DNA of 64,000 nt from Alphaproteobacteria bacterium (GTDB lineage Bacteria; Pseudomonadota; Alphaproteobacteria; Caulobacterales; Hyphomonadaceae). The notes under the pieces were generated by a model that saw nothing but the letters and a program-made list of their open reading frames with translations, was not told the origin of the DNA and did no database searches. Below, piece after piece: positions 51,810-54,017 of the stretch; within the stretch, counting starts at the first letter, position 1, and each line of letters starts with the position of its first letter. A program made the position numbers and the translations under genes. Location: contig WGLW01000008.1 in the NCBI GenBank assembly GCA_016125405.1, forward strand, positions 186,001 to 250,000, given 5' to 3'.

Positions 51810-53117
51810 CTACTCCGCCGCCAACGTGGCGCCCTGAACGTGGGGGCGGCCTTGCCGATAGCTGGTGATGCGGTCTTCGATCTCCTGCCGGAAATGGCGG
51901 ATCAGCCCCTGGACAGGCCAGGCAACCGCCGATCCGAACTCGCAGATCGTGTGCCCTTCGATCTGGCTGGCGACATCAAGCAGCGTGTCGATCTCCGACA
52001 TCTCCGCCTCGCCGCGAGCCATGCGTTCCATCACGCGCCACGTCCACCCCGTGCCTTCCCGGCACGGTGTGCACTGCCCGCAGCTCTCGTGTTTGTAGAA
52101 GTAGCTGATGCGGGCGATGGCCCGGACCAGATCCGTCGATTTGTCCATGACGATGACGGCGGCTGTCCCAAGTCCGGACTTCACTTCCCGAAGCGCGTCG
52201 AAATCCATCAGCACGTCGTCGCAGATTTCCTTTGGGATCATGGGCACCGAAGAGCCGCCGGGGATGACCGCCTTGAGATTGTCCCAGCCGCCGCGCACGC
52301 CGCCGCAATGCTCTTCGATCAATTGCCGGAGCGGGATGGACATCGCCTCTTCGACATTGCACGGGCGCTCCACGTGTCCCGAGATGCAGAAAATCTTGGT
52401 GCCGGCGTTGTTGGGGCGGCCAAAGCCGGTGAACCACCCCGCCCCGCGACGCAGGATAGTCGGCGTGACGGCGATCGATTCCACGTTGTTGACGGTGGTG
52501 GGGCAACCATAAAGCCCGGCGTTTGCCGGGAATGGCGGCTTCATGCGCGGCTGGCCCTTCTTGCCCTCAAGGCTTTCCAGGAGAGCCGTTTCTTCCCCGC
52601 AGATGTACGCGCCGGCGCCGTGGTGACAGTAGATGTCGAAGTCCCAGCCGGACCCGCAAGCGTTCTTGCCCACCAACCCAGCCTGGTAGGCCTCCGCAAT
52701 CGCTTCTTCGAGAACTTCGCGCTCCCGAATATATTCCCCGCGCAGATAGATGTAGCACTTGTTCGCCCGCATCGCGAACGAAGCGATCAGGCACCCTTCG
52801 ATCAGCAGGTGCGGATCGTGGCGCATGATGTCCCGATCCTTGCAGGTGCCGGGTTCGCTCTCATCCGCGTTGACGACGAGATAGTGGGGACGGTCGCCGA
52901 CCTTCTTGGGCATGAAGGTCCATTTAAGTCCGGTCGGAAAGCCAGCGCCGCCGCGACCGCGCAATCCGGACGCCTTGATCTGGTCGCAGATCCATTCGGG
53001 ACCAAAGGACATCAGATCCTTGGTCGAATTCCACGCCCCGCGCTGCCTGGCTGCATCGAGATGAAAATCATGCCGGCCGTAGAGGTTTGTGAAAATCCGG
53101 TCGCTATCGAGAAGCAC
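51810..53117 (-). CDS. nuoF: NADH-quinone oxidoreductase subunit F
   Basis: NADH- and FMN-binding subunit with cluster N3. The start is set at GTG 53117 ([17 protein letters not shown]) because AAGGAG lies 7 bases upstream and the family starts there; a longer frame to 53210 overlaps another gene. The 435-residue protein has the FMN/NADH motifs [35 protein letters not shown] and the cluster ligands [12 protein letters not shown]. Its ribosome-binding site lies inside the end of the upstream small membrane-protein gene (14-base overlap). Confidence 0.96.
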
Positions 53118-53337
53118 GATCTTGCTCCTTTGCGCTACGCGCGAACCGGATAAGAGGCGGGCCGGAAAATCCGAGACCGGCAATGACGCCGGAGACGATC
53201 CAGAGAACATGGTGGGTCAGGGCGAAAGCGAGCCCGCCCGCCACAAGGCAAAGCCCGTCGCACAGCAGCCCCCAGATCAGCGCCTGAAAACGGCGCGACC
53301 TTTCCGTCGCCGCGGAGGTGACCGGACCATTCCTCAT
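53104..53337 (-). CDS. Uncharacterised small membrane protein within the nuo operon
   Basis: I do not recognise this 77-residue protein. It has a basic, hydrophilic N-terminus (to about residue 18) and two predicted membrane segments (about residues 19-39 and 44-60). The C-terminus is polar and positively charged ([14 protein letters not shown]). It is embedded in the operon: its ATG overlaps the nuoE stop (ATGA at 53334-53337) and its 3' end overlaps nuoF by 14 bases and carries the nuoF Shine-Dalgarno. This coupling argues that it is really translated. It could be a complex I accessory or assembly factor, but nothing in the sequence proves a function. Confidence 0.72.
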
Positions 53338-54017
53338 GCCTTGGTTTCCTCGGGCGCCGCTGGCTGCGGCGCGCCCGGAATCGTTTTCAAAGGCTCCGCG
53401 CGCGAACCATCGAAAAGCGCCGGGTCCGTAAGAGACGTCGCCGGACCTTCCGGAGCGCTCGTTTGTCTCTTTGCGTAAGTGCCCGGTTTGGGCTCCTTGC
53501 CCGCAGCGAAATCCTCGATCAGCTGCTCAAGCGTCTCGATCGATATGTCTTCGTAATAATAGTCGTTGATCTGGATCATCGGCGCATTCACGCAGGCCCC
53601 GAGACACTCCACCTCGACCCATGAGAACGTCCCGCTGCGGGAAACCTGGCCCTTGGGGCCAATCTTCCGCTCGCAGAATGACTTCAGCTTGTCGGCGCCA
53701 CGAAGCATGCACGGCGTCGTGCCGCAAACCTGGAAGTGATACTTCCCGACCGGCTCGAGATTGAACATCGTGTAGAACGTCGCGATCTCGTAGACGCGGA
53801 TGTACGCCATGCCGAGCCGGTCGCCGACCGCGCGCAGCGCTGCTTCGGAAAGCCACCCGCCGTTCTGTTTTTGCACGACCCACAAAGCTGGAATGACCGC
53901 GGAGTTACGGCGTTCCAGGGGGTACTTCTTTTCCCACCAGGCGATCTGGCTTTCCGTCTCCTTCGTGAAGACGAAAGTGGCGTTGGGGTCGGGGTGATGG
54001 AAACGCCGATGGCTCAA
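53334..54017 (-). CDS. nuoE: NADH-quinone oxidoreductase subunit E
   Basis: Carries the 2Fe-2S cluster N1a next to NuoF. The 227-residue protein has the thioredoxin-like domain with ligands Cys98 and Cys103 ([10 protein letters not shown]) and Cys138 and Cys142 ([10 protein letters not shown]). After about residue 175 it has a Pro/Ala-rich tail longer than in E. coli NuoE (166 residues), as is usual in alphaproteobacteria. Its start overlaps the nuoD stop by 4 bases. Confidence 0.97.

Follow-up and report, generated by a model that had tools for sequence, protein, structure and literature searches.

A predicted two-helix membrane protein encoded between nuoE and nuoF in Caulobacterales

The window analysed here, a stretch of 64,000 nucleotides, contains between nuoE and nuoF a genuine gene of 77 codons, the product of which belongs to an unnamed family of small inner-membrane proteins of Caulobacterales (hereafter family A), ordinary in kind except for one striking residue, a carboxylate predicted to lie inside the first helix. 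The gene is patchily distributed, with deletion scars, is often lost in its order, and is dispensable. Its residence in the operon is best read as that of an accessory or assembly protein for complex I that is specific to the lineage, a role for which we consider the case to be evenly balanced.

The ORF lies on the minus strand at 53104..53337 (ATG at 53337, TAG ending at 53104), between nuoE (53334..54017, minus strand; listed with a TTG start, which is putative) and nuoF (51810..53117, minus strand; GTG start at 53117). At its 5' end, the ATG overlaps the nuoE stop, the TGA being contained in the ATGA at 53337-53334 (minus strand), and GAGGA, a candidate Shine-Dalgarno sequence for the ORF, is read within nuoE (53347..53351, minus strand). 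At its 3' end, the ORF contains the nuoF Shine-Dalgarno AAGGAG (53125..53130, minus strand) and overlaps nuoF by 14 bases (53104..53117, minus strand), which encode the end of the ORF, ASR-stop, and, in another frame, the nuoF start. The overlaps and the nuoF Shine-Dalgarno, as described in the original prediction, can all be read in the sequence: the gene order nuoE, ORF, nuoF is a chain of overlapping genes, and the overlaps suggest that translation along it is coupled. A codon-usage score, trained on six neighbouring nuo frames including nuoE and nuoF, was positive in the ORF frame only (0.121 bits per codon vs. −0.086 to −0.49 in the other five frames). Third-position GC counts against coding, being less marked in the ORF (0.69) than in nuoE (0.77) and nuoF (0.79). 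The frame-specific codon score together with the homologues at the same place identify the ORF as a genuine gene, above chance.

Two hydrophobic segments are apparent in the hydropathy of the protein, and the AlphaFold2 model contains helices at residues 8-41 and 45-76 (mean pLDDT 71, pTM 0.39), in support of the two membrane segments that had been proposed. Predicted membrane helix 1 spans about residues 18-41 (53215..53286, minus strand; hydropathy and the AlphaFold2 model), and predicted helix 2 about residues 45-66 (53140..53205, minus strand; family residues and the model), with small residues at positions 50 and 54 and Pro60. The Asp27 codon (53257..53259, minus strand) specifies the conserved acidic residue inside helix 1: of 42 distinct proteins of family A, 27 have Glu at position 27, 14 have Asp and 1 has His, i.e. 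it is acidic in 41/42, or in 41/43 when a Caulobacter protein with Asn at this position is added. The set of 42 comprises proteins scoring at least 18 with profile A1, among them the 18 training rows and 11 of 16 hand-added proteins, the other 5 having lower scores; the Caulobacter protein with Asn, at 18.0 bits, is not part of it. Within the helix cores (residues 23-40 and 46-62) of these 42 proteins, position 27 accounts for 41 charges, and the 34 other positions together for three. Because the tails are basic (on average, 3.2 basic residues in the N-tail and 3.8 in the C-tail) and the loop is nearly uncharged (0.2 basic residues), the positive-inside rule predicts that both termini of the hairpin are cytoplasmic. 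The basic C-terminus of the original prediction was observed as well, but part of it is a by-product of the overlap, given that the terminal ASR is read from bases that also encode the nuoF start. A profile search of the PDB found no relative past the cut-off (best E = 0.06), and Foldseek with the AlphaFold2 model returned 12 matches within E = 10, all of them worse than E = 0.001, a comparison in which a two-helix model with a pLDDT of 71 says little.

When 61 genomes were searched with the window protein, 18 non-self loci were found (E up to 2.8 × 10−4), all 18 between nuoE and nuoF. To judge by the nearest named relatives of its NuoE, mostly Hyphomonadaceae MAGs, the window probably belongs to this family. 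Profile A2 produced strong matches (E = 4.9 × 10−7 or better) in 31 of the 105 genomes of the window's family, all adjoining nuoF on the same strand; nuoE was found on the other side in 23 of these 31, and the remaining 8 were read on the nuoF side only. Profile A3 produced strong matches (E = 4.9 × 10−12 or better) in 22 of the 150 genomes of Caulobacterales, with 22/22 located between nuoE and nuoF (placement from coordinates and earlier junction reads). Among the candidates scored, the number of which is capped for each genome so that some copies may have been missed, there was no strong match outside this junction in either the 105 family genomes or the 150 order genomes, and the other A3 matches in the order were weak (E = 9.8 × 10−6 or worse) and mostly in longer frames. 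Four hits inspected as possible relocated copies outside the operon (L020-L022 and L030) turned out to be frames of other ORFs or short frames. A class-wide search of 289 genomes with profile A1, in which at most 20 candidates per genome were scored, yielded weak matches in 7 other genomes (E = 4.7 × 10−4 to 0.0078), in open frames of 98-441 aa, as well as a second weak match in the window's own genome; we judge these to be chance matches. The family A gene does not always abut nuoE, being separated from it by another ORF in L393, L397 and L402 (families f3/f5) and in L004 and L018 (f1, the window's family). At L004/L046 and at L018, what separates the family A gene from nuoE is a second small ORF, itself with membrane segments.

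Profile A1, built from 18 rows, gives 98.1 bits for the window protein, which is itself in the training set. Fifteen junction proteins, from f3, f5 and the named locus L073, scored 18.0-37.3 bits, and for each of these, none of 200 local shuffles of its own sequence and none of 164 two-helix control windows scored as high. Thus, against shuffles and controls, homology within family A spans three Caulobacterales families. First-round profile scores were used throughout because iteration on junction ORFs drifts into any hydrophobic hairpin. Type C, the hairpin of the Caulobacter junction, matched family A in a profile-profile comparison with a probability of 62.7% (E = 7.2 × 10−5, 57 columns), and ten type C proteins scored 6.3-18.0 bits with A1, with 0-14 of 200 own shuffles as high, the other type C proteins falling below the matches listed. 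Type C proteins are possibly remote relatives of family A, several of them not clearly beating their shuffles. For hairpin types B and D, the same comparison detected no relation to family A (0.6% and 1.1%, respectively).

In agreement with the description of the protein as uncharacterised, no relative past the cut-off was found in Pfam, NCBIfam or the PDB. The best Pfam match of the window protein was DUF3040 (E = 0.22; 12.2 bits vs. a cut-off of 24.7); at E = 0.01, 27 A3 members yielded only single matches to TauE (0.0012), ATP-synt_I (0.0034) and DUF4271 (0.007), none accepted as a relative; NCBIfam, searched with the window protein only, gave 0 families at E up to 10. DUF1453 (CcdC, PF07301) had no match at E = 0.01 to the window protein or the 27 A3 members. 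Four Henriciella-type members scored 14.3-22.5 bits with it, below the cut-off of 24.6; the best of these (22.5 bits, E = 0.00012) is near the cut-off and covers only positions 34-82 of 145. An origin from NuoK, the helix 2 of which resembles by eye the Glu-containing helix 1 of family A, was rejected: hhalign gave 0.6%, and 60 shuffled NuoK sequences reached 3.2%. Comparison of A3 with the window's single NuoK, NuoJ, NuoA, NuoN, NuoM, NuoL and NuoH gave 0.2-5.3% (NuoJ highest, E = 0.0073), the shuffle baseline being that for NuoK only. A literature search, with many subscription papers outside its reach, found no paper on the gene nor any containing the word DUF5337.

Analysis of the closest pairs, picked as such, showed a clear excess of synonymous differences: 16 synonymous vs. 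10 non-synonymous for L006/L008 (pN/pS 0.20, p = 9 × 10−6), 17 vs. 5 for L106/L107 (pN/pS 0.10, p = 3 × 10−8) and 27 vs. 9 for L184/L192 (pN/pS 0.11, p = 4 × 10−13; Fisher tests with rounded site numbers). The latter two pairs are not independent because L184 and L106 carry the same sequence. In each close pair, NuoE and NuoF are more constrained than the family A protein (0.05 and 0.06 in L006/L008), and most other family A pairs approach saturation, their pN/pS reaching as much as 0.92. The window copy itself is divergent (pN/pS 0.66-0.92 vs. its genus, at saturated pS), so the claim of purifying selection pertains to close relatives of the gene and not to the branch of the window. The original prediction was to fall if no homologue were conserved at this position or if substitutions betrayed no selection; homologues were found at the junction in 31/105 family and 22/150 order genomes, and the close relatives evolve under purifying selection.

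A FastTree phylogeny of NuoE and NuoF covers 108 loci, of which 35 carry the gene, 72 lack it and one could not be assigned; on this tree, the distribution of the gene takes 15 state changes vs. 25-33 in 30 label shuffles, counts by which gain and loss are not separable. Even in the genus of the window, 10 genomes carry the gene and 3 do not (13 judged out of 15, with G007 and G012 left out). Four lineages of the window's family that lack the gene retain a mini-ORF, its first codon overlapping the nuoE stop and its end lying within the nuoF start, with lengths of 9 codons (L045), 32 and 31 (L047/L050), 13 (L065) and 18 (L071/L072/L093). The frame is the same in 4/4, which would occur by chance about once in 81 if the lineages are independent. 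In Henriciella and Hyphomonas genomes without the gene, nuoE and nuoF overlap directly or lie 3-4 bases apart. Thus, close spacing of nuoE and nuoF is kept with or without the hairpin, and coupling does not need the hairpin, given that the four lineages keep both overlaps by means of mini-ORFs of 9-32 codons. Accordingly, the suggestion that the gene is a translation-coupling spacer is weakened in so far as it means a spacer only. Nor does complex I need the gene: 128 of the 150 order genomes have no strong A3 match among the matches listed, though nuoF is present in 150/150.

The junction between nuoE and nuoF was also examined irrespective of family. Among 126 of the 150 order junctions, an ORF no longer than 175 aa and with one or more membrane-like windows occurs in 65; another 58 junctions are short, and the last 3 are longer and have no such ORF. 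The other 24 comprise 22 with gaps of about 2-11 kb and two with nuoE and nuoF on different contigs. The f5 junctions L133 and L141, with gaps of about 2 kb, were left out of the 126. Outside the order, 106 of 181 nuoF-bearing genomes were taken, for the most part the top scorers for NuoF, and 101 of their junctions were resolved first: the gap is at most 30 bases in 93, and 3 hold an ORF with a membrane-like segment. Among the 5 remaining, three, all of family f27, have an ORF of 75-77 aa before nuoF, and L277 was left out of the counts; G247, also outside the order, has a gap of about 1.2 kb with no membrane ORF among those listed. A membrane protein between nuoE and nuoF, which the original prediction had called unexpected, is indeed so in most of the class (3/101, plus the three of f27), but not in its own order (65/126).

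Several other arrangements were observed in these operons. In L381-L404 (22 genomes of f3 and f5), the nuo operon is interrupted, the nuoE-nuoF gap of about 2-11 kb holding long ORFs that by eye are TonB receptor-like, polysaccharide deacetylase-like and methionine-pathway-like. The junction of L244 (f3, g256) contains three small membrane ORFs in tandem, namely a family A member, a type D and a type B. Type B, found at Brevundimonas and Caulobacter junctions (e.g. L055, L062 and L081), is a separate conserved family of about 88 aa with membrane segments, invariant Y, R, E, L, G, W, R and H among six aligned proteins, and no accepted Pfam match for the one member searched. At the nuoF-nuoG junctions of L065, L074, L077, L078, L098 and L144, there is a multi-helix ORF of about 106-132 aa, which occurs both with the E-F hairpin (L077, L098) and without it. 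The nuo genes of L051 and L076, whose records bear the titles Pseudanabaena biceps and Bordetella, fall within Brevundimonas in the NuoE and NuoF tree, likely owing to contamination or misnaming.

The three f27 genomes, of three genera (L317, L356 and L362), encode a DUF5337 protein (PF17272) of 75-77 aa directly before nuoF, which starts at 1101 on the reverse complement at these loci. Like family A, DUF5337 is a two-helix protein with two hydrophobic segments, of which one does not reach the cut-off in L356, and it has an invariant Asp near the second segment in all three genomes; it differs in that its gene is preceded in f27 by a larger ORF, of 228-277 aa with hydrophobic N-terminal segments. 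No homology with family A was detectable by profile-profile comparison (4.7%, E = 0.0085), and profile A1 gave 2.7 and 1.5 bits for two of the f27 proteins, the third not being among the eight matches listed. Conversely, none of 60 order genomes exceeded the DUF5337 cut-off (27 bits), and the window protein had no DUF5337 match. Thus, hairpins recur at the nuoE-nuoF junction, f27 carrying an apparently unrelated one just before nuoF.

The usual picture of bacterial complex I is one of 14 core subunits and a few extras. Alphaproteobacterial nuo operons, such as those of Paracoccus and Rhodobacter, contain intercalated unidentified reading frames, which, like the family A gene, are small ORFs between nuo genes (sequences were compared for DUF5337 only). 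CydX and CcoM, small accessory membrane proteins of respiratory oxidases, resemble the family A protein in being short, hydrophobic and easily overlooked, a likeness that carries no claim of homology, and differ from it in having a single helix and in their association with oxidases. Known supernumerary subunits of alphaproteobacterial complex I are NDUFS4, NDUFS6 and NDUFA12, with PIMT in Paracoccus, described in the parts of the accounts considered here with the hydrophilic domain or heel of the complex (PMC11522691, PMC8762328). As additions to the 14-subunit core, they resemble the role proposed for family A, and they differ from this membrane hairpin encoded inside the nuo operon. The same parts of these accounts name no hairpin of this kind (PMC11522691, PMC8762328), nor is such a subunit named there for the Paracoccus structure (PMC11522691), Paracoccus not being a member of Caulobacterales.

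The accessory or assembly role is the reading favoured by residence at the junction, together with the chain of overlapping genes and the conserved carboxylate. The help with assembly or membrane delivery of the NuoEFG module that the original prediction suggested is a candidate form of this role. Under this scenario, the product would be made in the chain nuoE, ORF, nuoF by coupled translation, and the hairpin would insert in the inner membrane with both ends in the cytoplasm. Carboxylate 27, the small residues at 50 and 54, and Pro60 might then mediate packing of the hairpin onto a membrane-arm partner, which could help the assembly or stability of complex I. A bolder version, which we advance tentatively, is that family A represents a membrane subunit of bacterial complex I, or an assembly factor for it, that has so far escaped recognition and is made in a chain with the NADH module. 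The buried carboxylate of the hairpin would pair with a core membrane subunit, and, with DUF5337, family A may be among several hairpins that were independently recruited to a single task.

Somewhat doubtful in our assessment is the possibility that the ORF serves coupling or membrane tethering, i.e. that selection is for the translation of a short ORF, or of any hydrophobic hairpin, which would bring ribosomes to nuoF or anchor the polysome at the membrane, with little importance for the protein sequence. The occupation of one junction by hairpins without detectable homology (types A, B and D, and DUF5337 in 3/3 f27 genomes) would be expected in that case, as would the mini-ORFs that retain both overlaps in a common frame. 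However, living lineages manage with hairpin-less mini-ORFs or with direct overlap of nuoE and nuoF, and these mini-ORF lineages disfavour a pure spacer; moreover, family A keeps specific residues, including the carboxylate inside the helix (41/42), and pN/pS in close pairs is 0.10-0.20.

Junction residence alone does not prove function, because gaps of at least 120 bases, found at 59/101 loci for E-F, occur also at nuoD-nuoE (31/88) and nuoF-nuoG (32/79), where they hold soluble and membrane ORFs that by eye are unrelated to complex I. Such ORFs, along with the inserts of about 2-11 kb in 22 order genomes, are what one would expect if the protein were a passenger, a small membrane protein with no relation to complex I and no role in it that has come to reside in an operon that is permissive and well expressed. 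That is unlikely: strong matches in the order, found in 22 genomes, map to this junction in every case and, among the candidates scored, to no other place, and the presence of the gene in three families suggests long residence, so that these counts disfavour a free passenger. Finally, that the ORF is spurious, and open only on account of GC-rich composition and the nuoF leader, might be suspected from its shortness, the tail partly dictated by nuoF, the weaker third-position GC and the window copy having no close relative for a selection comparison, but this reading is very improbable and in effect refuted by the substitution pattern in relatives, the codon-usage score, the cross-family homology and the single conserved carboxylate.

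The lineages that retain only a mini-ORF are natural deletion mutants, which separate translational coupling from the function of the protein. Two-helix proteins have turned up more than once at the nuoE-nuoF junction, which calls for a common reason. If the role in complex I is true, this hairpin, resident in the operon and with a buried carboxylate that is conserved, would add a new accessory part or helper to the complex.
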